Assembly: GCA_013697915.1 (NCBI GenBank)
Contig: JACCVY010000269.1
Coordinates: 1-36,698 of the forward strand
DNA length: 36,698 nt
Direction: 5' to 3'
Source: Blastocatellia bacterium
Lineage (GTDB): Bacteria > Acidobacteriota > Blastocatellia > Pyrinomonadales > Pyrinomonadaceae
Shown in pieces: positions 3,095 through 36,698 of this stretch (within the stretch, counting starts at the first letter, position 1; each line of letters begins with the position of its first letter). Both the position numbers and the translations under genes were made by a program. Under the pieces are notes generated by a model, which saw nothing but the letters and a program-made list of their open reading frames with translations, was not told the origin of the DNA and did not search any database.

Positions 3095-3375
3095 ACGACG
3101 AATTTATAGACTTAGAGAACGAAAGCGAAGTAGGCGACTTATTGAAGAAACTAGAAAAGGGTCAGGAAGTTAAAGCCAGGATCAACGGTCAAGAGATTAC
3201 CTACTCGAACCCCCCTGAACCGTTGCCTATCTGTGAGAAGCACGAGTTCGAAGACGTTGGCGATGAGGGCAACGGTTACAGAGCAGCTAAGTGCCGTAAT
3301 TGCATAAATGGTAGGATCTTTGATCCTAAAACTCACGAAGTAGTAAATGGAGAAGTTCGTCTTTTAAGTAAATGA
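3091..3375 (+). CDS. Small zinc-ribbon-like phage protein
   Basis: 94 aa, start ATG overlaps the previous stop (ATGA), with GAGGA upstream as a plausible ribosome site. The N-terminal half is acidic and probably helical; the C-terminal half carries Cys-x2-His (CEKH) and Cys-x2-Cys (CRNC) pairs about 24 residues apart, consistent with one zinc site. The family is not recognised. It sits between the internal virion protein and the lysis genes, so either a virion accessory or a regulatory role is possible. Its last codons contain the CGTCTTTTA element of the next gene, so here coding and control sequence overlap. Confidence 0.75.
   Translation: MNDEFIDLENESEVGDLLKKLEKGQEVKARINGQEITYSNPPEPLPICEKHEFEDVGDEGNGYRAAKCRNCINGRIFDPKTHEVVNGEVRLLSK
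3358..3366 (+). promoter_or_regulatory. CGTCTTTTA late-gene element, copy 1
   Basis: Exact CGTCTTTTA, 14 nt from its first base to the ATG at 3372. It lies inside the last codons of the upstream gene, so it is conserved despite coding constraint. The downstream gene has no Shine-Dalgarno. Confidence 0.6.
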
Positions 3376-3671
3376 TTGGCTTACTTCTTAGATTACTTGC
3401 CGGACAGGCGCAGAAACCTATTCAACAAGCTCGTCAGTTTGATGGAAGTGCTTTTCTTAATAAGGTCAGGCAGTTTATAGATACGCCCCGACGTAAAGAA
3501 GCTGAGTTCCGTCAGAACAATCTCGAAAACGATCCTAACTACCAACGCTATCAGTATGACCAATACGAAAGAAACAACCCTTATCGTCGAGTAGACTACG
3601 GGACTAACTACGTACCCCCTAAGCCTTCCAGCTATGCTCCTGCCAAGCCGAAAACACCTAAGTATATGTGA
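3372..3671 (+). CDS. Hypothetical protein with Tyr/Pro-rich C-terminus
   Basis: 99 aa. A short hydrophobic N-terminus (IGLLLRLLAG) is followed by a polar region rich in Gln, Arg, Asn and Tyr and a Pro/Lys-rich tail. No catalytic motif is visible and I do not recognise a family. The start overlaps the previous stop (ATGA) and follows the CGTCTTTTA element with no Shine-Dalgarno. Its place after the large internal protein and before the lysis genes suggests a minor virion or membrane-associated protein; this is inference. Confidence 0.7.
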   Translation: MIGLLLRLLAGQAQKPIQQARQFDGSAFLNKVRQFIDTPRRKEAEFRQNNLENDPNYQRYQYDQYERNNPYRRVDYGTNYVPPKPSSYAPAKPKTPKYM

Positions 3672-4093
3672 TGAGCTTCTGGGACAACACTTTTGGTCAG
3701 TTTGTACAGATAACCGGAGGGATAGCTCTTTTGCTTGGAGCTATCGCCTTTGCCTATAGAACCTGGAAAGAGACAACCTCTAAAGTTGACGGTGAAACGA
3801 TTGATCGCCTCAAGGATGCTATTGTTTCGCTCAAAGAGGAAAATAGTATTTTAAGGACTGCAAACGCTGCCTTGCTGCTTAAATCAGCCGATCAAGATAA
3901 GGCCATAGCGAAAGCCCAAGCGGATATTCAAGTCTTACAGGGGCTTGTTACTGGTAAGGATATGCTCGACAAGTTAGGTATAAAGCTCGATACCTTAGAC
4001 TCTAACTTACTAGATGGTAACGCCAAGATTGCCCAACAGCTCGATAAAATTAGTCAAGGCCTAAATAGTTTGACAAAGAGTAAGCAAGGGTAG
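3671..4093 (+). CDS. Membrane-anchored coiled-coil protein, spanin/holin-like position
   Basis: About 140 aa. One N-terminal membrane segment (ITGGIALLLGAIAFAY) is followed by a long charged heptad-like helix (residues about 35-90) and a second helical stretch. A single transmembrane anchor plus coiled coil, next to an M23 endolysin and a holin, suits a lysis accessory or a membrane-attached structural protein; no lipobox is seen. I take the ATG at 3671, which overlaps the previous stop as TGATG; GTG at 3668 is the alternative. No Shine-Dalgarno, so translational coupling is likely. Confidence 0.75.
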   Translation: MSFWDNTFGQFVQITGGIALLLGAIAFAYRTWKETTSKVDGETIDRLKDAIVSLKEENSILRTANAALLLKSADQDKAIAKAQADIQVLQGLVTGKDMLDKLGIKLDTLDSNLLDGNAKIAQQLDKISQGLNSLTKSKQG

Positions 4094-4104
4094 ATTATTT
4101 GATT

Positions 4105-4164
4105 ATGTGGATTACTATACTGGCAATCATAGGTTTTATAGCTCTCTTAGCTTGGATTTTCTAA
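4105..4164 (+). CDS. Possible 19-residue transmembrane micropeptide
   Basis: The ATG at 4105 opens a 19-codon frame encoding almost only hydrophobic residues (MWITILAIIGFIALLAWIF), ending two bases before the endolysin ATG. The composition is that of a single membrane helix. No Shine-Dalgarno is present. It resembles the other micropeptide at 5092, and the lysis context makes a pinholin-type or regulatory role possible. Too short to be sure it is translated. Confidence 0.4.
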   Translation: MWITILAIIGFIALLAWIF

Positions 4165-4165
4165 C

Positions 4166-4810: not shown

Positions 4811-5092
4811 ATGATTATTGAAGTAGCAGTTATGGCTTCAGCAGTTGCGTTGTTAAACGCAGTTCGTGAAGCAATGGGTGGTTCATGGAAACCACTAATA
4901 TGGACAGTATCTTCCGGTGTGATCGCAGGATTGATGGCAGGTCTAGTGAGTCTTAGCGGTGTTGAGTTGACAGGTGAAACAGCTCAGATTTTAACTAATC
5001 CAGTTCTAGCCTTTACGCTCGGAATCGGTGGATCTGGTGTCTACACTTTGACAACTAAAGCAAGCTCAAGTCCGGTTCCAGAAGTCGGCTAA
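4811..5092 (+). CDS. Holin
   Basis: 93 aa with two or three hydrophobic segments (about residues 3-17, 29-48 and 64-83), small overall and with a polar Ser/Pro-rich tail. Size, topology and position directly after the M23 endolysin match a phage holin, which permeabilises the inner membrane to release or activate the lysin. A good Shine-Dalgarno (AAGGAG, about 6 nt) precedes the ATG, unlike many genes here. The stop overlaps the next start as TAATG. Confidence 0.7.
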   Translation: MIIEVAVMASAVALLNAVREAMGGSWKPLIWTVSSGVIAGLMAGLVSLSGVELTGETAQILTNPVLAFTLGIGGSGVYTLTTKASSSPVPEVG

Positions 5093-5154
5093 TGGGTTGT
5101 CTAGCTCTAATTGGGTTAGCAGTAGTAATCTTTTTGATTACCTTATTCACCTAG
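5092..5154 (+). CDS. 20-residue membrane micropeptide coupled to holin
   Basis: Starts in TAATG overlap with the holin stop and encodes MGCLALIGLAVVIFLITLFT, a single hydrophobic helix. Translational coupling to the holin makes expression credible. It may be a second small holin or antiholin; nothing in the sequence settles this. It ends just before a leftward terminator that serves the opposite-strand gene. Confidence 0.5.
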   Translation: MGCLALIGLAVVIFLITLFT

Positions 5155-5157
5155 ACT

Positions 5158-5185
5158 AAAAAACCCCCCGGTGATGAGCCGGGGG
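5158..5185 (-). terminator. Rho-independent terminator of the leftward gene at 5217-5432
   Basis: Read on the minus strand: stem CCCCCGG/CCGGGGG (7 bp) with loop CTCATCA, followed by six T. There is no T-run on the plus side, so it acts leftward. Confidence 0.8.
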
Positions 5186-5216
5186 ACGAGGGAGAGGAGC
5201 TAATGAAGAGTGTTCG

Positions 5217-5432
5217 CTATTCTTCGCCTATTATTATAGGCACAACTCCGACCTGAATACTATATTCACGATTACAATCCTTCCTCGGACAACGGATATA
5301 CCACAGCACCAATTCGTCATCCTGATCGACTAACCAAACTAGTTCCAGCTTGGTCTTTTTGTGGACAGTACAGCATGGGTCGGCCATCTGCATCGCCCAC
5401 TGAATCCACTCGTACAGTTCTACTTCTGGCAT
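5217..5432 (-). CDS. Small zinc-ribbon-like accessory protein, own leftward unit
   Basis: 71 aa with a Cys-Cys-x2-His motif (CCTVH) and a Cys-x4-Cys (CPRKDC), likely one metal site between beta strands. No family recognised. Start ATG at 5432 has a good Shine-Dalgarno (AAGGAG). It is a monocistronic leftward unit with its own terminator, set against the rightward lysis genes, as is typical of accessory (moron-like) genes. The leader contains a 7-bp inverted repeat at 5457-5503. Confidence 0.75.
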   Translation of the reverse strand: MPEVELYEWIQWAMQMADPCCTVHKKTKLELVWLVDQDDELVLWYIRCPRKDCNREYSIQVGVVPIIIGEE

Positions 5433-5456
5433 GGCTTTCTCCTTCTTATAAAGTGG

Positions 5457-5503
5457 CGAGGGCTAACATCTATTGTCTGCATCGACGGTGATGCTCGCCC
5501 TCG
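5457..5503. repeat. Inverted repeat in the divergent control region
   Basis: CGAGGGC (5457-5463) and GCCCTCG (5497-5503) are perfect complements separated by 33 bases, in the gap between the leftward gene ending at 5432 and the rightward gene at 5541. It could be an operator or a leader hairpin. Confidence 0.35.
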
Positions 5504-5518
5504 TGGTAATTAAAAACC

Positions 5519-5527
5519 TGCCATAAT
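5519..5527 (+). promoter_or_regulatory. Extended -10 promoter for the gene at 5541
   Basis: TG-C-CATAAT, with predicted start of transcription around 5534, only about 4-7 nt before the start codon. No -35 is evident. It gives a very short leader with no Shine-Dalgarno. Confidence 0.45.
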
Positions 5528-5540
5528 AATAAAACAAGTG

Positions 5541-5861
5541 ATGAAAGGCGTCTCCCCAACTCAAAATTCACTCAAGTATATGCGTTCTCTTGGCTATACT
5601 TGCCAGGTCGTGGAACACTGGAACCCCTTCGCCAATCGTCGCGTAGACCTCTTTAACTGCATAGACATTGTTTGTTTGAACGGTGATAAGATCGTTGGTA
5701 TTCAAACTACTTCTAAAGCCAACATGTCTGCCAGGCGTAAGAAAATGAAAGAAGAACCAGCTATGGCTTTATGGCTGAACGCTGCCGGTCAATTGGTTTT
5801 GCATGGTTGGTATAAATCGAAGAATAAATGGACACCTCAAGTTGAGGTTATTTCTGATTGA
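5541..5861 (+). CDS. Putative PD-(D/E)XK-like small nuclease family protein
   Basis: About 106 aa. The order SPTQNSLKYMRSLGY, VVEHWNPFANRRVDLF, IDIVCL, IVGIQTTS, then LHGWYKSKN matches a widespread small phage/bacterial family I associate with a Holliday-resolvase-like PD-(D/E)XK fold. Asp residues of the VDLFNCID segment and the following Gln (in IQTTS, where E/QxK is usual) are candidate active-site positions; the usual Lys is not obvious, so catalysis is uncertain. Start could be GTG 5538 or ATG 5541. The 3' end overlaps the convergent gene by 25 bp. Confidence 0.7.
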   Translation: MKGVSPTQNSLKYMRSLGYTCQVVEHWNPFANRRVDLFNCIDIVCLNGDKIVGIQTTSKANMSARRKKMKEEPAMALWLNAAGQLVLHGWYKSKNKWTPQVEVISD

Positions 5862-6037
5862 TAGCTTTCAAGAAGACGCTGTTTGTCAGACTTCTCTTCG
5901 ATATCTCTTAGTTTCTTCTTCTGGTAACGAAGATGCCTATCCTCGGGACCGTTCATCTTCTTGTACTGACAGTCGTTACAGTATTTCCGGGAACGCTTGA
6001 AGGTTGGTAGTCCACAAGTAATACAAAATTCGCTCAT
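5837..6037 (-). CDS. Small zinc-finger protein
   Basis: 66 aa. N-terminal CITC and YCNDC Cys-x2-Cys pairs (residues about 5-22) form a zinc knuckle; the remainder is highly charged and helical (KKKLRDIEEKSDKQR), suggesting nucleic-acid contact. It resembles short zinc-ribbon or HNH-associated phage proteins, but no HNH catalytic residues are visible. The ATG at 6037 lacks a Shine-Dalgarno; a TAAAAT box lies upstream. It is divergent from the candidate small RNA at 6055 and overlaps the gene at 5541-5861 tail to tail. Confidence 0.6.
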   Translation of the reverse strand: MSEFCITCGLPTFKRSRKYCNDCQYKKMNGPEDRHLRYQKKKLRDIEEKSDKQRLLESYQSEITST

Positions 6038-6039
6038 TG

Positions 6040-6048
6040 TGCTATACT
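6040..6048 (+). promoter_or_regulatory. Extended -10 promoter of candidate small RNA
   Basis: TG-C-TATACT, five of six matches to TATAAT plus the TGn extension. Seven bases downstream falls exactly on the first base of the 5' hairpin of the candidate RNA. Confidence 0.6.
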
Positions 6049-6054
6049 TATTTT

Positions 6055-6120
6055 ACACGCTTTTAACTAATTAGCGTGTAGTAACCGAGAAGGTTTCCCC
6101 CCTCCCCTCGGTTACTTTTT
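6055..6120 (+). ncRNA. Candidate phage small RNA with C-rich loop and terminator
   Basis: Starting at the predicted transcription start: hairpin 1 is ACACGC/GCGTGT (6055-6060 with 6074-6079), then hairpin 2 GTAACCGAG/CTCGGTTAC (6081-6089 with 6107-6115) followed by TTTTT. The hairpin 2 loop holds CCCCCCTCCC, complementary to G-rich Shine-Dalgarno sequences. No open reading frame lies inside. It might instead be only a terminator behind an unused promoter. The match of promoter, hairpin and terminator in about 80 bp favours a real RNA of about 65-70 nt. Confidence 0.5.
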
Positions 6121-6123
6121 AAT

Positions 6124-6151
6124 TTGACATTCTTTGTCAGTACGTTAAGCT
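6124..6151 (+). promoter_or_regulatory. Sigma-70-like promoter for the Rpf/CHAP lysin
   Basis: Perfect -35 TTGACA (6124-6129), 16-bp spacer, weak -10 TAAGCT (6146-6151). Transcription start is predicted near 6158, a few bases before the ATG at 6164. Confidence 0.45.
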
Positions 6152-6163
6152 AGTTTTTGTCTG

Positions 6164-6254
6164 ATGAAAAAGGAACGGTATTCCTAACCATAAAGACAGA
6201 GATTGGCTGACATTCGGACCACTTAGATTACTCGGCCGATTACTTTTATCTCTA
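6164..6254 (+). other. Out-of-frame N-terminal extension (signal peptide) of the Rpf/CHAP lysin
   Basis: The lysin frame stays open upstream to 6168 and encodes a classic signal peptide (WLTFGPLRLLGRLLLSLVL and on to FPHAQKVEAA) but has no ATG. The only ATG, at 6164, is one base out of frame; it runs MKKERYS then stops. If the AAAAA after the ATG were four A, the frame would read MKRNGIPNHKDRDWL directly into the signal peptide. Either a +1 frameshift at AAA-A-AGG, a one-base indel, or a non-ATG start applies. Confidence 0.5.
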
Positions 6255-7028
6255 GTGCTAACAGCAACTCTTTTTCCTCACGCCCAAAAAGTAGAAGCCG
6301 CATCCGTCAAGCCGGTAGTCGAAGTCATCTCGATCAATATCGACAATATCTATACTACTCCTGTCAGGGCTATTACCTTGCCAAAAGTAAAACAACCAGA
6401 GCCTATCCCCGAACCAGAACCAGCCCCTCCTCCACCACCACCTCAACCAGTAGGTTTACCATCAATTTTAATAAAAATAAGACAGTGCGAGTCTAGGGGT
6501 AATTACCAGGCTCAAAACTCTCGGTCTACCGCCTCTGGTGCCTACCAGTTTATTGACGGGACATGGGCTAACTACAAAGGTTATCAGAAGGCTAAACACG
6601 CCCCTAACCATATTCAAGACGAGAAAGCACTTTTAACGTACCAGAGAAGCGGAACAACGCCTTGGAACGCCTCTAAGCAGTGCTGGGGTATAAAAACGTC
6701 GTCAGCAACGAATTTGACCGTAAACTCTAGGGTCGTAGTATCTAGCAGTGTTATCAAACTTTACGCTGATCGAACTAACAATTGCGTCGCCTTCGCTAAA
6801 GCCAAGACAGGTATCTATCGAACGCTAGGTAATGGTGCAAGATCAGGGATACAGGGCCATGAGCCTAGAGTTGGAGCAATAGCAGTTGTTAAGGGCAGTA
6901 TCCATGCTGGAGTAGTGGTGGCGATCAGTGGGAATATGGTTACCATCCACGAAAGTAATTATATAAAAAACTGGATAGTCCAAAGGACACTCCCGATAAG
7001 TATGTTCTTAGGCTACGCTTATAATTAA
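6255..7028 (+). CDS. Exported Rpf-like transglycosylase with CHAP-like C-terminal domain
   Basis: 257 aa from GTG 6255, but the true N-terminus probably lies at 6164-6180 (see the separate entry), adding a signal peptide. A Pro/Glu-rich linker (residues 47-66) precedes an Rpf/transglycosylase domain (about 69-145): QCESRGNY with catalytic Glu79, STASGAYQFIDGTW, and Cys78/Cys143 as the usual disulphide. A CHAP-like amidase or endopeptidase domain follows with NNCVAF (Cys177) and IHAGVV (His217). It should cut glycan and peptide bonds of peptidoglycan outside the cell. The architecture is frequent in Actinobacteria and Patescibacteria, the main hint for the host. It meets the leftward operon tail to tail, with overlapping stop codons. 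Confidence 0.85.
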   Translation: MLTATLFPHAQKVEAASVKPVVEVISINIDNIYTTPVRAITLPKVKQPEPIPEPEPAPPPPPPQPVGLPSILIKIRQCESRGNYQAQNSRSTASGAYQFIDGTWANYKGYQKAKHAPNHIQDEKALLTYQRSGTTPWNASKQCWGIKTSSATNLTVNSRVVVSSSVIKLYADRTNNCVAFAKAKTGIYRTLGNGARSGIQGHEPRVGAIAVVKGSIHAGVVVAISGNMVTIHESNYIKNWIVQRTLPISMFLGYAYN

Positions 7029-7177
7029 AGCGAAACGCCGAGGAAAGGAAGCAAATACATGAATACCCAAATCAATCCGAGTACCGCAGCAACTATCCCA
7101 CCAAACTTTGGCAGGTAGGTGATGAACGCCCATGCAATTGCAGCCAGAACTATTGTGATAACAAGAAACTCAAACAT
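7025..7177 (-). CDS. 50-residue two-helix membrane protein, last gene of the leftward operon
   Basis: Begins ATG at 7177, 3 bp after the stop of the preceding gene, and encodes two hydrophobic segments (FEFLVITIVLAAIAWAFI and FGGIVAAVLGLIWVFMYLL). No Shine-Dalgarno is clear. A small two-helix protein could be a membrane effector or a second holin. Its stop overlaps the stop of the Rpf/CHAP lysin on the other strand; no terminator lies between the two operons. Confidence 0.6.
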   Translation of the reverse strand: MFEFLVITIVLAAIAWAFITYLPKFGGIVAAVLGLIWVFMYLLPFLGVSL

Positions 7178-7180
7178 AAC

Positions 7181-7285
7181 CTAATTAAAAAGCTTTCTTA
7201 CTAAGAAGTAAAGCATTGTCAAGAGGGTGATGGCTGGAAAGAATAACCCAGCCGCGATAACTGTATACCAGACTTGATCTGTCAT
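7181..7285 (-). CDS. 34-residue single-helix membrane peptide
   Basis: ATG at 7285; hydrophobic core VIAAGLFFPAITLLTMLYFL flanked by polar ends and a basic RK. AGAGG lies almost against the start, closer than usual. Position between the 52-aa and 50-aa genes with tiny gaps supports translation. Function unknown; a membrane micro-effector is possible. Confidence 0.5.
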   Translation of the reverse strand: MTDQVWYTVIAAGLFFPAITLLTMLYFLVRKLFN

Positions 7286-7310
7286 TCCTCTTTAGTTTCT
7301 ACTTTAACCT

Positions 7311-7469
7311 TTACGTCTTGCGACCAAATCCCGATTCCTTTATTGTATATAGTTCCCTAATAGTACCGTCTGAACCCTTCTCAAAAAACGTCTCTCCTTC
7401 TTGACCACGAGACTTACCCTCGGCCGTGACTATCCAGACTCTCTTAAACTTTCTTGCCTTGTTACTCAT
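7311..7469 (-). CDS. 52-residue basic protein
   Basis: ATG at 7469 with a near-perfect Shine-Dalgarno (AAGGAGG, 6 nt spacing), the strongest in the operon. The product is basic (KARKFKRVW start, FGRKT end) with a likely short beta-sheet core (VWIVTAEGKS). No family recognised. Probably a small DNA- or protein-binding factor. Confidence 0.65.
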   Translation of the reverse strand: MSNKARKFKRVWIVTAEGKSRGQEGETFFEKGSDGTIRELYTIKESGFGRKT

Positions 7470-7500
7470 TACTTACCTCCTTTTAATCCTTTTATACTTT

Positions 7501-7623
7501 TCATATATCTTTATCTGTTAATGGTTTGTCTAGGGAGGAGAGGGCTATATCACTTTCTACTTCGTTGCCCCATACATCCCAGCCTTCTGTTTTTTTAATT
7601 GTCTGTGTAAATGTCTTCATCAT
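7501..7623 (-). CDS. 40-residue acidic hypothetical peptide
   Basis: ATG at 7623 overlaps the stop of the preceding gene (ATGA; a second ATG follows at once). Sequence includes TIKKTEGWDVWGN and an acidic helical end. No recognisable domain. Coupling to its neighbour and a shared operon are the only support. Confidence 0.5.
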   Translation of the reverse strand: MMKTFTQTIKKTEGWDVWGNEVESDIALSSLDKPLTDKDI

Positions 7624-7751
7624 ACGTTTCTCGTAAACTTACACTTAACACACTGCTCCTTCGGCCAACCGTAGACCTCTTCCATCTCACCGCCACACTT
7701 AGGGCAAGGGTTGTTAAACATCCTCTTGATCCATTCTATTATCTTTTTCAT
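7620..7751 (-). CDS. 43-residue zinc-ribbon protein
   Basis: ATG at 7751 overlaps the stop of the DUF4116 gene (ATGA) and follows a strong GGAGG. Two Cys-x2-Cys pairs (CPKCGG and CVKC) about 20 residues apart make a compact rubredoxin-type zinc ribbon, preceded by a basic amphipathic start (KKIIEWIKRMF). Likely a small regulatory or nucleic-acid-binding protein. Not recognised as a named family. Confidence 0.65.
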   Translation of the reverse strand: MKKIIEWIKRMFNNPCPKCGGEMEEVYGWPKEQCVKCKFTRNV

Positions 7752-8074
7752 TTCTCCTCCACTAGCTTGTATCTCTTTCCATTTAATTCTATGATTTCGT
7801 CCTCTGTGAACATGTTTGAGTTTACAAATCGTAAGACACCACCGTCCTGCCTAACTGCTTCTAAGCAGATCTCATAGGTTTGTTCTCTTACGTATTGTAA
7901 GGCATAGCCGTTCTGCCTAACTGCCCCTAAGCAGATCTCAGGGGTTTGCTCTCTTACAAATTGTAAGGCATAGCCGTTCTGCTTAACTGCCTCTAGTGCC
8001 TCTTTTCCAGATAGATTACATTTTGTATCTAGTGCATCGTATTCTCTTTTATAATCTTGTAGGTTCTTATTCAT
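7748..8074 (-). CDS. DUF4116-repeat protein
   Basis: 108 aa. Three consecutive about 24-residue repeats of the DUF4116 type (EAVKQNGYALQFVREQTPE, then two more with AVRQNG/AVRQDG) occupy residues about 28-92, followed by a short C-terminal segment (IIELNGKRYKLVEE). DUF4116 repeats are known in bacteria, large DNA viruses and phages but have no assigned function; they are thought to be protein-interaction repeats. Start TAATG overlaps the HTH gene stop, with GGAG upstream. At the DNA level the repeats include near-identical stretches, suggesting recent internal duplication. Confidence 0.75.
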   Translation of the reverse strand: MNKNLQDYKREYDALDTKCNLSGKEALEAVKQNGYALQFVREQTPEICLGAVRQNGYALQYVREQTYEICLEAVRQDGGVLRFVNSNMFTEDEIIELNGKRYKLVEEK

Positions 8075-8292
8075 TATTTATTCTCCTCCATTTTCTTTTT
8101 AAGTCTATCCTTGTATTTAACCGTCAGCGGTTGGTTATTCCTGCGTAACATAGCCTCCTCCCACTTCTCGCCGGTGTTCAGACGGTATCTGGCTGTCGTG
8201 TAGTTAACACCAGTCTTTTCAGCGATCTCTAGCAGAGTTAAGCCTTTGTCTCTTAGGCGCAGGACTTCCATGATGTGATTGAATGTGTTCAT
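8074..8292 (-). CDS. Small helix-turn-helix DNA-binding protein
   Basis: 72 aa. Residues about 5-40 form an HTH: RDKGLTLLEIAEKTGV, then NYTTARYRLNTG as recognition helix; the C-terminus is basic (KYKDRLKKKMEE). The fold resembles resolvase/MarR-like phage HTH proteins. It overlaps the nuclease gene stop (ATGA). As the only recognisable HTH regulator in the genome it could act on the early promoter at 9792-9819; this is inference. Confidence 0.7.
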   Translation of the reverse strand: MNTFNHIMEVLRLRDKGLTLLEIAEKTGVNYTTARYRLNTGEKWEEAMLRRNNQPLTVKYKDRLKKKMEENK

Positions 8293-8864
8293 TTGCCTGT
8301 TTTCCAGTTATAGATTTTCTTCGCTGCTAGGAACACTTCGAACAGCCCTTCAGTTTCGGCGTGTAGCAACTCCCAGCCGTTAGTATCTTTGTCGAGGTGC
8401 AGGATAAAACAGCGCTCAACTTCCGGTAAACACTCTCGATAGGCAGCCACCTGGACGTAAAAATCAGGGTAAACCCCAGATGAAGTCTTAAAGTCGACTA
8501 GGCAGGTTTTACCGTCAACCTTGGCGATAGCATCAATCGTTCCGCCGTAGCGATGTTCTTTATTGATCAGCACCTTTTCAAACTCCAGCCACTCCCAACC
8601 ATCAGTAACAGACTTAAAGTTTTCCAGTATCGTCTTGAACTGGTCGGTATGAGTGAGTTTCTGACCCTTAGCGTCTTGCTCAAGCATACTGTGAACTGCC
8701 GAACCGAACTCTCCAGCAGACTCGAGTATCTGCTCACACTTCTCTGTACCGTGCTTGCCGTACCAGTACATTAGCTCTGGTTTAGCGATAGCAGCTCCCA
8801 GGATAGTAGTTACGGAAGGAACCGGCTCACCGTCGATCAAGTATTTATTCGTCTTCTTTGCCAT
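8289..8864 (-). CDS. RecB/Cas4-like PD-(D/E)XK exonuclease
   Basis: 191 aa. Motifs fit the PD-(D/E)XK superfamily: EFGSAVHSMLEQ (helix with His), a strand GGTIDAIAKVDG with the metal-binding Asp, then CLVDFKTSSG giving D-x-K, and YVQVAAYREC as the QxxxY-type helix. Such phage nucleases trim double-stranded ends during recombination and replication, often paired with a single-strand-binding protein, which is the adjacent gene. Overlaps that gene by 20 bp. No Cys cluster of true Cas4 is seen, so a RecB-like phage exonuclease is preferred. Confidence 0.8.
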   Translation of the reverse strand: MAKKTNKYLIDGEPVPSVTTILGAAIAKPELMYWYGKHGTEKCEQILESAGEFGSAVHSMLEQDAKGQKLTHTDQFKTILENFKSVTDGWEWLEFEKVLINKEHRYGGTIDAIAKVDGKTCLVDFKTSSGVYPDFYVQVAAYRECLPEVERCFILHLDKDTNGWELLHAETEGLFEVFLAAKKIYNWKTGK

Positions 8865-9357
8865 TTAAGTAATTTTCCAATCCTTCTAGGTCGTCATGCT
8901 CCTTCGGTGCGGTGTCTACGTTAACCGCAGCGGGCTTTTTGCTCTCTGTGACGACAGTTATCTCGCCTTTGCTATATTTGGCGAAGTAAGTGGCAACTTC
9001 GATAACTTCCTTACCGCTTATAAACTTTATAGCTTCTTCTTGAGTCATGTAAGCTGCCTTACCTAGTACATAGTTTACGGCGTTGGTCAGAGAGTTCTGG
9101 CGAATAATAGCAGCTTGAGTCTCAGGGTTGTCTTGACGGCCACCTGAACCGCTGAAAGCAGGCTTAACAACCTCGAACTTCAGCCCGTACTCGGTATCTT
9201 TCCATTCACCCTCAAGCGACTGACCAACCTCGAACTTGCCAAACATGTCTTTATAAAGCTTGTCGTCTTCACCCTGGAAGGTCGTAACCGTGTAAGCCTT
9301 ACCAGCCTTACTTGTTTTCTGTTGGGTCTCTAGGATTTGTTTGACTATTACTTGCAT
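8845..9357 (-). CDS. Single-stranded-DNA-binding-like (OB-fold) protein
   Basis: 170 aa from ATG 9357, chosen over upstream codons because it overlaps the previous stop as TAATG and follows GAGAGG. The N-terminal about 60 residues look like an OB-fold (VKQILETQQKTSKAGKAY, then VTTFQGEDDKLYKDMFG). A flexible Gly/Ser stretch, a helical part with RQNSLTNAVNYV, and a very acidic tip (DDLEGLENYLNGKEDE) follow, the last recalling SSB partner-binding tails. It likely coats ssDNA for the next gene's nuclease. Family assignment rests on pattern only. Confidence 0.6.
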   Translation of the reverse strand: MQVIVKQILETQQKTSKAGKAYTVTTFQGEDDKLYKDMFGKFEVGQSLEGEWKDTEYGLKFEVVKPAFSGSGGRQDNPETQAAIIRQNSLTNAVNYVLGKAAYMTQEEAIKFISGKEVIEVATYFAKYSKGEITVVTESKKPAAVNVDTAPKEHDDLEGLENYLNGKEDE

Positions 9358-9754: not shown

Positions 9755-9791
9755 GTTTCCCCTTTCTTAATTATACTTCTTTATATAGGTA

Positions 9792-9819
9792 GTATTACAA
9801 ATATAATTGAAGTTGTCAA
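9792..9819 (-). promoter_or_regulatory. Strong sigma-70 promoter of the leftward early operon
   Basis: On the minus strand: TTGACA (9814-9819), 16-bp spacer, TAATAC (9792-9797). Transcription starts near 9785, about 30 nt before the ATG at 9754. The -35 overlaps an 11-base sequence (AAGGGGTAACA on the plus strand, 9818-9828) that recurs at 10093-10103 and may be an operator. Confidence 0.75.
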
Positions 9820-13150: not shown

Positions 13151-13159
13151 CGTCTTTTA
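13151..13159 (+). promoter_or_regulatory. CGTCTTTTA late-gene element, copy 2 (portal)
   Basis: Exact copy, 14 nt before the portal ATG at 13165; no Shine-Dalgarno. Confidence 0.6.
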
Positions 13160-15141: not shown

Positions 15142-15150
15142 CGTCTTTTA
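15142..15150 (+). promoter_or_regulatory. CGTCTTTTA late-gene element, copy 3 (scaffold leader)
   Basis: Exact copy, but no start codon follows at 14 or 16 nt; the scaffold ATG is about 110 bp away and has a Shine-Dalgarno. This argues for a transcription signal, not a translation signal. Confidence 0.6.
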
Positions 15151-24048: not shown

Positions 24049-24057
24049 CGTCTTTTA
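24049..24057 (+). promoter_or_regulatory. CGTCTTTTA late-gene element, copy 4
   Basis: Exact copy, 16 nt before ATG 24065. Right boundary of the glycan island. Confidence 0.6.
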
Positions 24058-24959: not shown

Positions 24960-24968
24960 CGTCTTTTA
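24960..24968 (+). promoter_or_regulatory. CGTCTTTTA late-gene element, copy 5
   Basis: Exact copy, 14 nt before ATG 24974. Confidence 0.6.
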
Positions 24969-29200: not shown

Positions 29201-31794
29201 AAACCCAAACAGGTAGAGGACGAATAACACAAACAGCAGGGAACCCATATTTTGTAACTCAAAGCTCCACGGTTGGTTCTACAGAAGATTACAAAGGGTT
29301 TGGTTACAGTGGTAATCAGAGAAAGATAGGCAAGGATAGCAGTGGCAGACTGTTTATAACGTATAGGAAATACTCCTCCGCTGTTTACCAGATATTCGTA
29401 GATTACTCAGACAATGGAAGCACTTGGACAAGCGTGCGAGTAGCCGATATCACTACTGCCCACCAGCGAGTATCGTCATTAGCTATTGGGTCAGATGATG
29501 CAGTACACGTAGTATGGTATGGGAAAGACCCGTCTAATACAGGTACAGATCAGCGACAAATAAAATATGCCAAGTCGACAGATAATGGAGCGACATACTC
29601 CTCGTGGGTTAGTGTTGGTGGTGATGTAAGCGGATATGCTAGCCAAACGCTATGGCAAGAGCACCCTTGCGTATTCGTAGATAGTCAAAACCCTAATAAC
29701 CTATATGTAGTCTGGGAAGGTAGGGACTCGGTTAATACGTCTTCTCAGCACGTAAAGTTTTCTAAATCTACCGATGGTGGGACTACGTGGTCTGCATGGG
29801 CTAATATCGGTACGAATGGCTCTCGGCCAGGCATAACGAAGACGGGTAATGGCATTCTGCATGTCGTCTATTACAGTTCAAGTGGGTCACCTTTAAACTC
29901 TGCTATACAGGGGCAACATATATACTCTAGCGACGAAGGTGCTACATGGTCATCTAATACTATAATTGGTGACACTGGGTACGACTCTAGGCATCAAAGC
30001 TTAATAAGAGATAACAATAGTCTGCACGTGGCTTACAGGCAGATAGATGTTGCTAACTCTACAAGCCAGATAAGATACTCAATGTTTGACGGATCCACAT
30101 GGAGCGCTCCTGTCATAATCTCGCAGTCCCCAGGTAGTGTATGGCAATTTTTCCCACATATTGGCTTGATAAAAGGACAGCCAACAGTTCTATGGTTCGA
30201 AACCACTGATGGTGCAACCTACCCATCTGAGGACCCAACAACAGGCAATATATATATCAGTCGAAAATACAACGGATCGTGGACGATACGGCAAGCTCTT
30301 GCTACCACTGACGCTGACTTATATCCGTACATTAATAAAGATAGCCTCGATTTAGCATACTCAACTAATACAGCTTCGCCATATTCAATTAAGTACTTAA
30401 AACTTGGAGAGCATGGTTTAGGATCTCAATCAGGTAAGGCTCGTATTACTAATACCGCTACAAAGACCCAAGGCGGTAAAAGTCGTATCCAGGTGGCCAC
30501 TACCTCCACCCAGCTAGGTAAAGCTCGCCTGACGGCAACCTCGTTGCAAACTCAAACAGGCAAGAGTCGGATCCAGATTACCAGCACCCAGACACAGACG
30601 GGTAAGGCGAATATTGCCGGTGGAGTAGCCCAAACCCAAACAGGTAAAGCTCGGGTCACAGCAGCTACAACGCAAATACAGACTGGTAAAGCCAATATTT
30701 TCAAAACTACTACACAGACCACTACTGGCGTAGCTAACATTATCCCTAACGATACCCTAGTTGACAGTTACAGCGAGAGTAATGTTGATGAAAACGGCGC
30801 CCTGGACATCACTTACAGCAAAGAAGGCCAATCATTTACAGGGATCGGGGGAACTATCACTCGAGCCAAGTTCTATCTCAAAAAAAGCGGCACCCCTGCC
30901 GTTAATATGGTTGCCAAACTTTATGCTCATAGCGGAACCTTCGGTGCTAGCGGTAGTAAACCAACAGGCACAGCACTCGCTACCTCCGATACTGTCTCTA
31001 CGACTACTCTAACCGCTTCCTCCCAACTCATTACGTTTAACTTTACAGGTGCCGAACGGTACCTGATGACTAACGCCACTAAGTATTTCATTATTTTAGA
31101 GGCAACCCTCACTGATGACAGCGTCCGGATCGGGATTGACTACAGTTCCGCTACTCATCCCGGACGGGGAGTCACCTACGACACTGATTGGCTTGATTAC
31201 TTCGACCATGCTTTTTACGTCTACGCCATTGCTATCACTACACAAACTCAAACAGGAAAAGCCAGAGTAACCGTATCCACTACTAAAACGCAGTCGGGTA
31301 TAGCTCGTGTCACGGCTTCAACTGTCAAAACTATCCTCGGTAAGGCTCGGGTCACGGCGACCGCAACGCAAACGGTTACTGGTAAAGCTAGAATCACCGC
31401 AATAGCAAGCCAGACCCAACTAGGTAAGGCTAGGGTCGCCGTCTTATCGACACAGACCACCACCGGTAAGGCGAGAATTACTGCAGCCACGGTACAGACT
31501 CAAACAGGTAAGGCACGGGTGTCAACCACAGCTATCCAAACGGTTACCGGTAAAGCTCGGATAGCAAAGATAGTCGAGCAGACTATCACCGGTAAAGCCA
31601 ATATCGTTATCTCTACCGTTACGACCACTAAAACGACAACTGGTAAGGCCAGGATCGCCTCAGTTGCTACCCAGACAATAACAGGTAAAGCTAGTATCTC
31701 CTCGAACGTCCTGCCACCAGCGACGAAAACCATCCTAGTAGATGGAAAGTATTTAGCTTACAGAGTTACCCCACAGTTTTACATACGCCTCTAG
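26221..31794 (+). CDS. Giant multidomain tail fibre with LamG-like, sialidase-like propeller and repeat linkers
   Basis: 1,857 aa. Residues 1-205: concanavalin/LamG-like (SFETQ, ALDTWYRVGI, VFYDDIIIND). About 205-890: several beta-sandwich modules, one with RPNAAGDAQTWAVTG. Three blocks of a 14-residue repeat (consensus TGKARITASTTQTQ) at about 890-1005, 1400-1510 and 1670-1825, some 27 units. Between blocks 1 and 2: a BNR/sialidase-type propeller with Asp-boxes (YSDNGSTWT, STDNGATYSS, STDGGTTWSAW, SSDEGATWSS). Between 2 and 3: a beta-sandwich (GQSFTGIGGTITRAKFYLKK, NATKYFIILE). Likely the receptor-binding fibre, with lectin and glycan-binding or cleaving modules on repeat spacers. The propeller DNA looks more A/T-rich and uses more ATA/AGA codons than flanks. 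Confidence 0.85.
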   Translation: MALLWLTSFETQLLATFGDADSVTGSPTISTSVAYSGSASMRCNPSATTAYITRTFAADGNTNQVYASMRFRIKTAPGGDTIILLLRDDTGTNQVDIRLKADRTLFLWPIGDAAPVQIGSASSALALDTWYRVGIHTNNTGATATVTAYLDGTSFASGNLNTSGANVRTDNARFGVVNTSTCEVFYDDIIINDNTGSRENGMPGDVKLAYLRPNAAGDNNGALSGDYTSIDETVPDDATTVAILDANNDILDVNVEAPSVYGIDPWDTIKFVAVGVREAATTAASESWQARIKSASGGTVSSSATTTHDDTTYKTNGDGAPRNYKLVSYTDPTTTAAWTVTGTNSLDNMQIGIIAIDATPDIQVTALWAVVAYVAETQPSPSQNTYRLYEDGTETASTAIAAQDTNITRNVTANSNLQLRDRLQQTTGAAGASTDDYQLQYSKNGGAWTNVTTSSTSVKGFDSASLTDGGATTNRLGAGGNELFGDNFNNTTRNTIKWTQFGTATVPSETGTVLQYATSTTAGYGGYTTIDQFNLTGSSMSIQVVDAGNQALASLEVNPIQVIKTADTNNKLFWLITGGNLRPYKKVSGVTTALATNLTFSATTHKYLRIRELSGTTYWEYSADRFTWTTHHSEANPITITSVYQETTVGTWAAEASGTNVQFDDFKVMADGSFIAGEISEDGLVDDLNLTLSNYTELLNSLTLISADLANNDTLDFRVLTNGVVAGSRTETLRPNAAGDAQTWAVTGASAHVATNDDLTTTYLRNNTASPFEADLNLDASALVVAEIVGIDVRFQARTETSAVGQVQVGVRLSSTNSLGTNVTAIPITETSFKSSDISRPGGGSWTVADLANLQVVAIGDNNSGTAVRVTELYVDVRYRTNPRITVSKPATTTTQTTTGKARITASTTQTITGKARITATASQTITGKARITTTVTQTQLGKARITAASTQTQTGKARVTASTTQTQTGKGRITASATRTQDGKARITATSTQTQTGRGRITQTAGNPYFVTQSSTVGSTEDYKGFGYSGNQRKIGKDSSGRLFITYRKYSSAVYQIFVDYSDNGSTWTSVRVADITTAHQRVSSLAIGSDDAVHVVWYGKDPSNTGTDQRQIKYAKSTDNGATYSSWVSVGGDVSGYASQTLWQEHPCVFVDSQNPNNLYVVWEGRDSVNTSSQHVKFSKSTDGGTTWSAWANIGTNGSRPGITKTGNGILHVVYYSSSGSPLNSAIQGQHIYSSDEGATWSSNTIIGDTGYDSRHQSLIRDNNSLHVAYRQIDVANSTSQIRYSMFDGSTWSAPVIISQSPGSVWQFFPHIGLIKGQPTVLWFETTDGATYPSEDPTTGNIYISRKYNGSWTIRQALATTDADLYPYINKDSLDLAYSTNTASPYSIKYLKLGEHGLGSQSGKARITNTATKTQGGKSRIQVATTSTQLGKARLTATSLQTQTGKSRIQITSTQTQTGKANIAGGVAQTQTGKARVTAATTQIQTGKANIFKTTTQTTTGVANIIPNDTLVDSYSESNVDENGALDITYSKEGQSFTGIGGTITRAKFYLKKSGTPAVNMVAKLYAHSGTFGASGSKPTGTALATSDTVSTTTLTASSQLITFNFTGAERYLMTNATKYFIILEATLTDDSVRIGIDYSSATHPGRGVTYDTDWLDYFDHAFYVYAIAITTQTQTGKARVTVSTTKTQSGIARVTASTVKTILGKARVTATATQTVTGKARITAIASQTQLGKARVAVLSTQTTTGKARITAATVQTQTGKARVSTTAIQTVTGKARIAKIVEQTITGKANIVISTVTTTKTTTGKARIASVATQTITGKASISSNVLPPATKTILVDGKYLAYRVTPQFYIRL
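28890..29238 (+). repeat. Fibre repeat block A (8 units of 42 nt)
   Basis: In-frame 14-aa units around GKAR[IV], e.g. TTTGKARI, TITGKARI, TQLGKARI, TQTGKGRI, TQDGKARI. Ends exactly where the sialidase-like propeller begins. Confidence 0.85.
30421..30750 (+). repeat. Fibre repeat block B (8 units)
   Basis: SQSGKARI, TQGGKSRI, TQLGKARL, TQTGKSRI, TQTGKANI and further copies. Begins directly at the end of the propeller and ends at the next beta-sandwich. Confidence 0.85.
31233..31705 (+). repeat. Fibre repeat block C (11 units)
   Basis: TQTGKARV, TQSGIARV, TILGKARV, TVTGKARI, TITGKANI and further copies, up to the short C-terminal cap of the fibre. Confidence 0.85.
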
Positions 31795-31795: not shown

Positions 31796-31804
31796 CGTCT
31801 TTTA
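31796..31804 (+). promoter_or_regulatory. CGTCTTTTA late-gene element, copy 6
   Basis: Exact copy, 16 nt before ATG 31812. Confidence 0.6.
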
Positions 31805-31811: not shown

Positions 31812-32465
31812 ATGGCTTCAACTTACTTACAGCTCAAATCGCAAGTCGCAAATAGAAGTGGGCGCATAGACGGTGGTACAGCCAACACTATTCGTGATAA
31901 CGCCATCAACGACGTTATTCGGTTTACCATCGCTGACTCTCACCCGTTCAGCTGGTTAAAGGCGACAGCAACCGTTGTCTTGGTAGCTGGTGTTGCTGAT
32001 ATGCCGACTAACTACAATCCCACCCATAAACTCCAGCCTGGGTTTGTTAGAATTGCTCGTGCTAGTACCAACGACGATATCCCCTTAACTGAAACAACTG
32101 TCGATATGTTCGACAGATACGCTGCAGGAGACTATCGCTACTACATTCGCTGGAGTAGCTACCGTTTTGAGATCGTGTCAACCGAGCAGAGTAATACCCT
32201 GACAGTTACTTACTACATCATCCCAACCGCTCTCTCTGCTGATGGGGATACCTCAATTATTCCAGATTCAGAGTGTGTCACTTTGCTGGCCTCAGCCAAG
32301 GTTTGGTTAGCTAAGGAGAGAGACGAGACTAACCATGATCGGGATAACGCTCTCGGTTTGCAACGCCTTGGTCAGATGATTATTAACGATAAGCGAGCCA
32401 ATCCACTGCGACCAATCAGATCAAACCTGTACAACGTGAATCTAGGCTATAACATTCCTGGTTAG
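31812..32465 (+). CDS. Tail adaptor (head-tail connector / tail tubular A-like)
   Basis: 217 aa. TYLQLKSQVANRSGRIDGGT and IRDNAINDVIRFTIADSHPFSW form the helical start; a beta core (VVLVAGVADMPTNYNPTHKL) and the C-terminal helix SECVTLLASAKVWLAKERDE follow, matching phage adaptor proteins that bind beneath the portal (T7 gp11 / P22 gp4 role). Followed by the nozzle-like protein, the usual order in podoviruses. Confidence 0.75.
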   Translation: MASTYLQLKSQVANRSGRIDGGTANTIRDNAINDVIRFTIADSHPFSWLKATATVVLVAGVADMPTNYNPTHKLQPGFVRIARASTNDDIPLTETTVDMFDRYAAGDYRYYIRWSSYRFEIVSTEQSNTLTVTYYIIPTALSADGDTSIIPDSECVTLLASAKVWLAKERDETNHDRDNALGLQRLGQMIINDKRANPLRPIRSNLYNVNLGYNIPG

Positions 32466-34072: not shown

Positions 34073-34081
34073 CGTCTTTTA
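34073..34081 (+). promoter_or_regulatory. CGTCTTTTA late-gene element, copy 7
   Basis: Exact copy, 16 nt before ATG 34089. Confidence 0.6.
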
Positions 34082-34088: not shown

Positions 34089-34847
34089 ATGGCAGCTTAT
34101 TCATTGCAGTTCGGAAAAACAGATACTCTAGCCTCCCAGATGGCGGCCGGCGCTACCACCGGTACACTTTCCTCCGGTGGCTTCACAAACTTTACTGGTG
34201 ACTATTTGGTTTTAGACTACAACAACCCTTCTAAAAGAGAGGTCATTTTTTGTAATGTTACGGGAACGGCTATCGCTTCTGCCACTCGAGGTCAATCTGG
34301 TACTAGTGATGTCGTTCACTCGGCTGGTGCAGCGGTAGGGTACTCTTTCGTTCCCGCCCATTACTCAGCTTTATCTAATGGTACAGGTTTTGCTACTGGT
34401 ACAGCTTCTGTGGGAATCCCTGCCGCAGCTGTTAAACAAGAGGCTTGGACTAGCTGGGTACCAACACTGGTGAATATGACGTTAGGCAACGGTACGGTAA
34501 TAGCTAAATATCACAGGACAGGAAACAGAGTCTACTATTATTTCAAATTTACTCTCGGTTCCACTTCAGCGGTTAGTGCTGCCCCTGCTTTTGCCCCGCC
34601 TATTACGCCTTCTTCTACTAATTATGGTTTCTCTCCAGCCCCTAGAATCGGAGGATTCGTTCATATGGAAGATACCGGTAGTAATTCATATGTTGGACTC
34701 TCAATTATAGGCACGGAAAGTTTTGAAATTTTAACATTAAGCACCCTTGCTACCTATCTACAAAATCTTCAGACTACAGCAACCGTTCCATTTACTTGGA
34801 CGACTGGCGACTTTATGGTCACTCAAGGTTTCTATGAAGCCGCTTAA
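34089..34847 (+). CDS. Tail appendage / minor fibre protein
   Basis: 252 aa. N-terminal region (LASQMAAGATTGTLSSGGFT, YLVLDYNNPSKREVIFCNVT, ATRGQSGTSDVVHSAGAAVG) resembles the collar or virion-attachment part of phage tail proteins; the C-terminal domain EAWTSWVPTLVNMTLGNGTV and VYYYFKFTLGSTSA matches a common receptor-binding or stabilising beta domain. The 3' half is more A/T-rich than the 5' half, suggesting exchange of the distal domain. Confidence 0.72.
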   Translation: MAAYSLQFGKTDTLASQMAAGATTGTLSSGGFTNFTGDYLVLDYNNPSKREVIFCNVTGTAIASATRGQSGTSDVVHSAGAAVGYSFVPAHYSALSNGTGFATGTASVGIPAAAVKQEAWTSWVPTLVNMTLGNGTVIAKYHRTGNRVYYYFKFTLGSTSAVSAAPAFAPPITPSSTNYGFSPAPRIGGFVHMEDTGSNSYVGLSIIGTESFEILTLSTLATYLQNLQTTATVPFTWTTGDFMVTQGFYEAA

Positions 34848-34866: not shown

Positions 34867-34875
34867 CGTCTTTTA
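34867..34875 (+). promoter_or_regulatory. CGTCTTTTA late-gene element, copy 8
   Basis: Exact copy, 14 nt before ATG 34881; the 22 bases from here into the gene are identical to copy 9 and its gene. Confidence 0.6.
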
Positions 34876-34880
34876 GGTAA

Positions 34881-35885
34881 ATGGGACTCTTAGACACAAT
34901 CAGAAGCCGTGAAGGCAATAGAGATTACAGCACAGGATCAAAACTTCTCCGCTGGTTGTTTAATCCCTCATCCAGAGAAGCTAGTTACCTTGAGCAACGA
35001 CCAGGTGATTTACTTGGTGGTACAGCTCCTTACGGAACAAGATCGTTGCTCGGAGGTAGTTACCTAAATCGGGAAACTACCGCTCCCCAGACACCTCAAC
35101 AAATTACCCAACAGGCCAAGACCACTACTCCCGTTGCAACTAACCAAGCACCTGCACCTGGTGGAGGCGGCGGTGGAGGCGGCGGTGGAGGAGGTAACGC
35201 AATCCTCGACCTATTCTCTACAATTTATAACGGTCAGGAGTATAACAACGAAGCTGATTACTTCGGAGCCGTTAACCAAGACATTGACTCCAAGCTCCTA
35301 GAATCTCTAGGCTTGCTCGAGGGTGGTAGAACTAAAGCCCGTGAGAATACTGGCAGAACTAAATCTCGCTTACTTGAACAAGTTACTCAAATCCTCGGAG
35401 ACCTAACCAAAAGTCACGAAAAGGGCAACCAAGATATTGGTGCTTACTACTCTGGCTTAGGTGATCTCTATCAGTCCTCAGAAGGTGTTCGCCTTAACGC
35501 CTTAGGTGAAGAAGTTGGACGAGAGCGAGGCCGAGTTGAATCTGAAAAGTCTCGTAACATAGAAGATATTGACCGATCACTGGCCGAATACCTAGAAGGC
35601 ACGAATCAGCAAGAAAGAGGAATCTACGACCAGGCTAACCAGCTCCGTGGTCAAAACTTTAACTCTGCGGCTCAATTTAGAGACCAGTTAGTAGCTAACC
35701 CAGGCGCACAACGCCAAGCTAATACCGCTATCGGTCAGACTCAGATAACCGACACTTCACAGTTACTGAAGCAAATAAATAGTTTCTTAGGTCAATCTAA
35801 TATCCGCAACCGTCGCCCTAATACCGACATTGCCTCTAGCAACCCGGTCAACAGTTACTTGAATCCATTTGCGCCTACTTACTAA
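34881..35885 (+). CDS. Internal/ejection-type helical virion protein with poly-Gly tract
   Basis: 334 aa. N-terminal 60 residues (LLDTIRSREGNRDY), a Gln/Thr/Pro-rich linker, then a run of 12 glycines (about residues 94-105), then a long charged helix-rich region (LLESLGLLEGGRTKARENTG; YLEGTNQQERGIYDQANQLR) and an NPF-rich tail. Resembles podovirus internal core proteins ejected with DNA. Sits just before the giant polyvalent protein, and the two genes begin alike (MGLLD, MGLID). Confidence 0.65.
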   Translation: MGLLDTIRSREGNRDYSTGSKLLRWLFNPSSREASYLEQRPGDLLGGTAPYGTRSLLGGSYLNRETTAPQTPQQITQQAKTTTPVATNQAPAPGGGGGGGGGGGGNAILDLFSTIYNGQEYNNEADYFGAVNQDIDSKLLESLGLLEGGRTKARENTGRTKSRLLEQVTQILGDLTKSHEKGNQDIGAYYSGLGDLYQSSEGVRLNALGEEVGRERGRVESEKSRNIEDIDRSLAEYLEGTNQQERGIYDQANQLRGQNFNSAAQFRDQLVANPGAQRQANTAIGQTQITDTSQLLKQINSFLGQSNIRNRRPNTDIASSNPVNSYLNPFAPTY

Positions 35886-35889
35886 AAGT

Positions 35890-35898
35890 CGTCTTTTA
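35890..35898 (+). promoter_or_regulatory. CGTCTTTTA late-gene element, copy 9
   Basis: Exact copy, 14 nt before ATG 35904. Confidence 0.6.
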
Positions 35899-35903
35899 GG
35901 TAA

Positions 35904-36698
35904 ATGGGACTAATTGATCTTATCTCTAATACTCTTCGTAATAAAAAGAATGTAGGCGGATTAGCCGGAAGACTTGTAGACGCTGCTTATGGGGGTAAAG
36001 TGCCTGTTATCAACCGTATCGGTCAAGGTTTCGCCACACCAGCCATAAGTAGAGTTCAGTCTCAAATAGACACTCAGAACGATCAGGTACGTAACCGTAT
36101 CTTTACCCGTGCCAGACAAGAAGCTGATCCGGTTAAAAGAATAAAACTACAGGAGTTGGCCAGAAGTGTCCAAACTCCTAATGTTTTGCAAGAAGCTGCC
36201 CCAGAGATTGCTTCCCCTGACTACCTTAAGAACGTCGGCAAGGATTTATTAAACGTTGGAAGTGCTGGTATCGCATCATTAAGAATACCTGGTGCTATTG
36301 CTAAAGCTTCGCCCTTGGTTAGGTTAATAGGTTCTGGTGCTATAAGAGGAGTAGAGAACACTGCTTTTGAGGGAGCCAAGCAGGCTATAGATAAAAAACT
36401 TGACCCTAAGGCCTTGCGTAACGCTTTCTTACTAGGTGCTGGGGCTAACACTGTTCTATCACCAAGACTAACTAAAAAGGCAGGGCAAGAAGTAGCTGGT
36501 AACATTAAGGCTTCAATGGTTCGTGATCCTATTACTGGCAGGCTACCGGCTAGCCCTGGGTTTGCTAAAGTGCCAGGAACCCCAGAAACGGGGGCTCAAC
36601 AAGCTATCAAAGACGGTCTCACAGAGGAGCAGTTTGTGAAGGGGCAGAAACTTGTATATCATGGTTCTCCTAAGCCATTAAAGAAGTTTGAAAAAAGA
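35904..36698 (+). CDS. 5' part of the large internal virion polyvalent protein
   Basis: The ATG at 35904 opens a frame that runs off the window and continues, in frame, at base 2 through the 127-bp overlap. This part encodes about 265 residues: MGLIDLISNTLRNKKNVGG, a Gly/Ala/Arg-rich helical section with hydrophobic segments (LNVGSAGIASLRIPGAIAKA, LRNAFLLGAGANTVLSP) and the beginning of the ART-like domain (KLVYHGSPKPLKKF). Amphipathic Gly/Ala helices suggest membrane contact during ejection. Start has no Shine-Dalgarno but has element copy 9. Confidence 0.85.
   Translation, partial: MGLIDLISNTLRNKKNVGGLAGRLVDAAYGGKVPVINRIGQGFATPAISRVQSQIDTQNDQVRNRIFTRARQEADPVKRIKLQELARSVQTPNVLQEAAPEIASPDYLKNVGKDLLNVGSAGIASLRIPGAIAKASPLVRLIGSGAIRGVENTAFEGAKQAIDKKLDPKALRNAFLLGAGANTVLSPRLTKKAGQEVAGNIKASMVRDPITGRLPASPGFAKVPGTPETGAQQAIKDGLTEEQFVKGQKLVYHGSPKPLKKFEKR
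36572..36698. repeat. 127-bp exact terminal redundancy with bases 1-127
   Basis: Base-by-base identical to the window start. The length is a common assembler k-mer, and the repeat lies inside a coding frame, so it most likely marks a circular or circularly permuted assembly rather than a biological terminal repeat. Confidence 0.95.

Follow-up and report, generated by a model that had tools for sequence, protein, structure and literature searches.

Probable single-element late promoters and an adjacent predicted region 2-only sigma factor in an uncultured phage lineage

The window analyzed here is a complete contig of 36,698 bases (JACCVY010000269.1, or G000:C266 in our collection) within a 4.5-Mb metagenome bin of a Blastocatellia bacterium; from its structural genes it is judged to be a phage, apparently podovirus-like. 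Nine copies of the nine-base element CGTCTTTTA lie ahead of its putative late genes, and one of them adjoins a small gene encoding a predicted phage sigma factor with region 2 only. We consider it highly probable that these elements are single-element late promoters, used by the host core polymerase together with the one-domain phage sigma, and that eight of the resulting transcripts would start within about 2 bases of the start codon. Three distant relatives carry a diverged copy of the same gene, each accompanied by its own version of the element. Here, 'late' is assigned to the genes behind the element from gene content.

A repeated element ahead of putative late genes

The initial annotation of the window described CGTCTTTTA as a nine-copy, plus-strand element and took its copy number to exceed chance. 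Both statements hold: the nine exact copies are on the plus strand where they had been placed, and the minus strand contains none. Under a second-order model, 0.16 copies are expected on the plus strand, and the enrichment score is 27.2, whereas no 9-mer in 60 simulated sequences scored above 13.6. When up to one mismatch is allowed, there are 14 matches (9 exact and 5 inexact) against 12.2 expected, which leaves no surplus of inexact matches and marks the element as strict. Eight copies are intergenic, the exception being the one at 3358, within the last bases of ORF (open reading frame) 3091-3375. The rest of the bin (about 4.48 Mb outside this contig) contains 34 further copies.

As annotated, eight copies precede an ATG by exactly 14 or 16 nucleotides. 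The 14-nucleotide spacing is found for five copies, namely, those at 3358..3366 (ahead of ORF 3372-3671), 13151..13159 (portal gene, 13165-14904), 24960..24968 (ORF 24974-25525), 34867..34875 (ORF 34881-35885), and 35890..35898 (an ORF that starts at 35904), and the 16-nucleotide spacing for three, those at 24049..24057 (ORF 24065-24952, the first after a cassette of sugar-type genes), 31796..31804 (adaptor gene, 31812-32465), and 34073..34081 (ORF 34089-34847). Accordingly, the A of the start codon lies 6 bp after the element in five genes and 8 bp after it in three. The ninth copy (15142..15150) has no ATG at the usual spot; it precedes the ATG of the scaffold gene (15251-15904), which has a Shine-Dalgarno sequence of its own, by 109 nucleotides, in line with the roughly 110 previously reported.

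The eight closely spaced genes had been described as lacking a Shine-Dalgarno sequence, and in terms of pairing energy with the anti-Shine-Dalgarno this is weak or absent: the mean is -1.1 kcal/mol (range 0.7 to -2.7), compared with -4.7 kcal/mol for 24 other genes, the starts of which were picked by the analyst and some of which also lack a Shine-Dalgarno (p = 0.006). No conserved -35 element was found upstream of the nine copies, again as annotated: the best column, with 0.99 bits, is matched by 38% of random sets, and the summed upstream information by 6% of them. Downstream, counting the C of the element as 0, T occupies position +11 in 8 of the 9 copies and AA occupies +13/+14 in all nine, including the one at 15142, where no ATG follows; in the 14-nucleotide class, the second A of this pair is the A of the ATG. 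These bases are tied to the element even at 15142, which argues for an initiation region rather than a ribosome site.

A predicted sigma factor encoded beside the element

ORF 12689-13144 (plus strand; 151 residues) ends six bases before the portal copy of CGTCTTTTA. Its prediction as a phage sigma factor draws on its protein family, on sub-threshold matches to Sigma70_r2, and on the predicted fold. The family, collected by profile search, consists of 23 proteins of 77-162 residues, some of them fragments. Sigma70_r2 matched 6 of the 17 members scanned (3 of 7 and 3 of 10), in every case below the Pfam cut-off. Of the 50 VIA-align rows listed for the predicted models, 49 match sigma region 2; Foldseek alone gave no significant match. 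In an alignment (A8) of 20 of the 23 family proteins and the sigma of the relative L012, from which P0021-P0023 (77-100 residues) were excluded, D54, Q57, E58, L59, and W64 are invariant in all 21 sequences. They form a D..QE...LW-type motif, which we take to be the region 2.2 core-binding motif of sigma-70 factors. Beyond residue 103, the model shows just a beta hairpin and a short, low-confidence helix and no further helical domain, and the protein is accordingly predicted to comprise sigma region 2 without region 4. It does not fit the usual type of extracytoplasmic function (ECF) sigma factor, which combines region 2 with a region 4 that reads a -35 element, given the missing region 4, the small size of the family members, and the lack of a -35 element at the sites.

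The element does not occur between positions 3367 and 13150, so that the sigma gene has no upstream copy, as expected if the sigma is made before the late genes.

A search of the viral contig collection with the window sigma alone yielded no relatives; in the phage collection, the best match (query P0008) had an E-value of 0.5 and was not convincing, and no convincing match was found in plasmids either. Among 195 genomes comprising the bin and its relatives, the sigma profile matched only the window, and it matched nothing in CHP58, A-4L, or the first 45 kb of phiEco32. Portal and capsid profiles likewise found nothing in the genome contig collection. As a separate observation, the cultured Anabaena phage A-4L (L233) contains 13 plus-strand copies of CTAACACACA, a repeat that is unexplained.

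Each relative carries its own predicted sigma and its own element

The initial annotation had proposed a motif search in related phages, and three distant relatives, found through terminase, portal, and capsid searches, indeed each have a repeated element. These are G195 (20.9 kb; portal 54% and capsid 63% identical to those of the window), G197 (36.1 kb; 51% and 60%), and G196 (locus L012; 5.6 kb; portal 50%). All three carry the sigma gene, encoding proteins of 116-130 residues that are 31-33% identical to the window sigma.

In G195, AAATATCGTCTTTTATA occurs three times, before the portal, scaffold, and adaptor genes; the longest word present in three copies has 17 bases, compared with 11-13 in 30 simulations. 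In G197, there are five copies of TAGCATCTTTAG and one of TAGCATCTTTTG, located before the adaptor gene, the homologue of ORF 34089, the portal and scaffold genes, the cassette of sugar genes, and the ORF 24065 homologue; TAGCATCTTT (in the form TAGCATCTTT[AT]G) has six copies against 0.05 expected, with two look-alikes that differ by two mismatches, at 16149 (inside an ORF) and 19363 (at the capsid start), left out. In G196, comparison of the portal and scaffold leaders revealed the 18-mer GGCACTCTTTATTAGTGA, present before both genes; in 30 simulations, no repeat exceeded 15 bases. None of the relatives' elements has a copy on the opposite strand.

Across the four phages, TCTTT is invariant in all 20 aligned sites, and both the portal and the scaffold gene are preceded by the element in every case. 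Moreover, an element always adjoins the end of the sigma gene, following it after 6 bases in the window, after 9 in G195, and directly in G197; in G196, the two overlap at the last bases of the gene. The neighbour of the sigma gene in G197 is the adaptor gene (39% identical), so the element stays with the sigma gene through rearrangement. Among 82 control loci (L009-L090), one exact CGTCTTTTA was found in eight and two in none, and the sigma profile matched no examined locus beyond the four records, many of the loci being fragments, which makes this a modest control.

A further fragment, G198 (L224), which does not include the terminase-portal region, encodes a capsid protein with 60% identity and has a single CGTCTTTC at 8074, directly before the adaptor gene; no sigma gene was found in this fragment. 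A scan of viral contigs with CGTCTTTTANNNAAATG returned at least 120 stretches, with one match each among the 80 listed; in a collection of this size these are most likely chance matches, and nothing was drawn from them. The end of G197 (L228/L229), from about 35869 in the late-gene orientation, contains short tandem repeats of the CGGTGCGGTT type that translate as MAVRFAMRF-like peptide repeats.

A probable transcription signal rather than a ribosome or processing site

In the window, the fixed spacing of eight of the nine copies from an ATG with a weak or no Shine-Dalgarno would also fit a translation signal that takes the place of the Shine-Dalgarno. We regard this as extremely improbable, given that the 15142 copy is 109 nucleotides from its ATG, that the AA at +13/+14 keeps its place relative to the element rather than to the ATG, and that the relatives show a different picture. 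There, element and ATG are between 12 and 90 nucleotides apart (12, 78, and 25 in G195; 13, 28, 27, 79, 90, and 22 in G197; about 32 and about 83 in G196), and in 8 of the 11 genes a Shine-Dalgarno (-4.9 to -9.3 kcal/mol) follows downstream of the element. This variable spacing, the Shine-Dalgarno sequences that follow, and the location of some elements 80-90 nucleotides upstream of the Shine-Dalgarno imply that the element is not a ribosome site. The three genes that lack a Shine-Dalgarno (0.7, 1.2, and -2.3 kcal/mol) are those directly after the sigma gene in G195, G197, and G196, respectively; by the same start rule, the one in G196 would still have a leader of about 20 nucleotides. The preference for a transcription signal over a ribosome site in the initial annotation is thus supported and was right in kind.

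The same annotation had allowed for RNA processing as an alternative. In this scheme, a long late transcript would be cut just after CGUCUUUUA, producing near-leaderless mRNAs, and the sigma-like gene would act at different promoters or at none. The location of all copies on one strand and the fixed ATG distance of eight of them are compatible with such cleavage, which we nonetheless disfavour and consider unlikely: the sequence diverges among the phages along with the sigma-like gene while the positions are kept, the neighbouring gene has a predicted sigma fold, and we know of no nuclease that cuts at such a site.

Alternatively, the elements could be promoters with another reader, either a host alternative sigma factor or an activator that acts on host sigma-70 at the -10 region. 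Three host-type sigmas are candidates for this role, and CGTC is typical of ECF sigma -10 elements. ECF promoters, however, also have a -35 element, and none is conserved here; furthermore, the four phages have four versions of the element, every one of them lying next to the sigma-like gene of its own phage. We therefore deem a reader other than the phage sigma improbable, to about the same degree as processing. Beyond the initial annotation, the present analysis thus adds a probable reader of the signal, the region 2-only phage sigma, and the co-variation of sigma and element in four phages.

A model for late transcription

Under the favoured reading, in which the phage sigma directs the host polymerase to CGTCTTTTA, the unmodified host polymerase would first transcribe the early genes along with the stretch from terminase to sigma. 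A search between 7000 and 16000 did not place the early promoters, with 13 sigma70-like promoter matches compared with 11.4 in shuffled sequences. The phage sigma would then bind the core polymerase, and the sigma-bound enzyme would open the DNA at CGTCTTTTA and start about 6-8 bp downstream. A protein predicted to have region 2 without region 4 would contact only a -10-type element. Initiation at 6 bp would fall on the A of the ATG in the 14-nucleotide class (five genes) and two bases upstream of the ATG in the 16-nucleotide class (three genes). At 7-8 bp, it would remove part of the AUG in the former class, so that leaderless translation requires the near end of this range. The scaffold gene would have an ordinary leader of about 95 nucleotides with a Shine-Dalgarno. 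The near-zero leader length suggested in the initial annotation is a prediction for the window phage only, most of the relatives' genes being leadered. The scaffold leader (window 15156-15254) also includes a strong hairpin (ACGAGCGUCGACGCUCGU) before the Shine-Dalgarno, which is only slightly more stable than in shuffled sequences (z -1.7).

A broader proposition, which we hold to be evenly balanced, is that in this uncultured lineage late transcription is run by a sigma that ranks among the smallest stand-alone ones, in essence a lone region 2 domain of about 100 residues; that in the window phage the promoter has become fused to the start codon, such that transcripts start on the AUG and need no Shine-Dalgarno; and that both the change from leadered to leaderless genes and the parallel divergence of sigma and element (CGTCTTTTA, CATCTTTAG, ACTCTTTAT) are directly readable. 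The relatives have kept leaders with a Shine-Dalgarno, except for the gene next to the sigma gene in all three.

The analysis ties an unexplained repeat to a gene and provides sigma-promoter pairs that can be tested, in a phage lineage for which the searches returned no close cultured relative. If the model is correct, one sigma domain of some 100 residues would suffice to reprogram the host polymerase, and the four natural sigma-element pairs would provide a series for studying how region 2 reads -10 DNA. How a phage translates structural proteins without a Shine-Dalgarno could, in turn, be tested on the predicted leaderless late mRNAs. The logic of a repeated element beside a small gene could also reveal other unannotated phage sigmas.

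The phage genome and its source contig

The first 127 bases of the window are identical to the last (1-127 and 36572-36698), and the genome is therefore read as circular or terminally redundant, at a length of 36,571 bases. Its products include a portal and an adaptor, both of the SU10 type, as well as a terminase, a major capsid protein, and an M23 peptidase. The genes for the small (11138-11512; a weak PHROG match) and large (11454-12671) terminase subunits, both on the plus strand, lie upstream of the sigma gene and have no element. No close cultured phage was found: identities are 26-31% for the capsid protein (among the 20 records listed out of 61) and 22-25% for the portal (among the 10 listed out of 142).

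The ORF from 35904 has no stop before the contig ends and shares its reading frame with ORF 65-3094, so that the two would form a single protein of some 1,250 residues; the part from ORF 65-3094 has a Pfam match to ART-PolyVal (ADP-ribosyltransferase in polyvalent proteins). Between the capsid and tail genes, the sugar-type cassette (16952-24042) includes glycosyltransferases, methyltransferases, a nucleotidyl transferase, and a short-chain dehydrogenase, with such functions in 8 of the 10 ORFs scanned; comparable ORFs, judged by eye, occupy this position in G195, G197, and G198. A protein of 1,857 residues (26221-31794) contains many copies of a 42-nucleotide repeat (14 residues, TQTQTGKARIT-like), and its first third matches phrog_14065, of unknown function. 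Three direct repeats of 66 bp (7822-8019) lie inside the minus-strand ORF 7748-8074.

No DNA polymerase was detected among the window proteins scanned, which represent part of the ORFs, and a Pfam scan of 17 proteins before the cassette found no polymerase; the region 5000-11100 contains mostly small ORFs without a match. Rfam gave no match in the window, and no 16S gene was found in the bin. A search of the bin with PF00940 (single-subunit RNA polymerase) was uninformative, as the control genomes gave no match either. When 13.9 kb of the window was compared with 144 other genomes, only short, weak matches were found, in 5 of them. RpoB of the bin is nearest to PDB chains that we take to be proteobacterial; it was not used for host assignment.

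Comparison with known systems

The proposed system would work like that of gp36, the sigma factor of phage phiEco32. In the published description (PMC8948821), gp36 promoters consist of one consensus element, tAATGTAtA, with the start 6-8 bp downstream, and the missing -35 element is attributed to the lack of region 4 in gp36. The window shows the same combination of a single 9-bp element without a -35, located before late genes, and a phage sigma that is predicted to lack region 4, and in eight genes the start codon follows the element at 6 or 8 bp. Furthermore, SU10, the Pfam models of which match the window portal and adaptor, is a phiEco32-like phage. Phage 7-11 (PMC8948821) similarly has a sigma, SaPh711_gp47, that reads late promoters at conserved, similar genome positions; gp47, however, contains region 4 and uses two-part promoters (GTAAtg-(16)-aCTA), whereas the window has one element and no predicted region 4.

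There are also differences from phiEco32. Its element is unrelated in sequence to CGTCTTTTA, and gp36 has 214 residues, compared with 151 in the window and 116-130 in the relatives. The phiEco32 sigma gene belongs to a separate middle cluster, whereas that of the window lies between the terminase and portal genes (in G197, before the adaptor gene). The phiEco32 genome has 77.6 kb, against 36.6 kb here, and the window genes, unlike those of phiEco32, are predicted to be leaderless. Comparison with gp36 by hhalign gave probabilities of 6.0% and 4.7% (E-values of 0.006 and 0.009 for one comparison). Hence, the window sigma would be analogous to gp36 in its mode of action, and we do not call it a gp36 homologue.

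Bacteriophage T4 provides a further parallel. T4 late promoters lack a -35 element, gp55 contains only a region 2-like part, and late transcription also needs the sliding clamp. In one account (PMC3014915), gp55 is a phage-encoded late sigma that replaces sigma-70 at the late promoter element TATAAATA, and gp33 is required as well. The T4 element differs from CGTCTTTTA.

Leaderless phage mRNAs, with the start codon at or near the 5' end, have precedents; a study of phage AR9 notes that phage transcripts are often leaderless (PMC5312081). The window differs in that a fixed distance of 14 or 16 nucleotides between promoter and ATG is predicted to make eight of the nine units near-leaderless. The literature searched contains no mention of CGTCTTTTA, and, judging from titles and the openings of abstracts on leaderless late phage promoters, metagenomic phage sigmas, and sigmas without region 4, no description of such a system was found. 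That a phage can switch to late transcription with a sigma of its own is well known; here, the predicted sigma has region 2 only and co-varies with its element.

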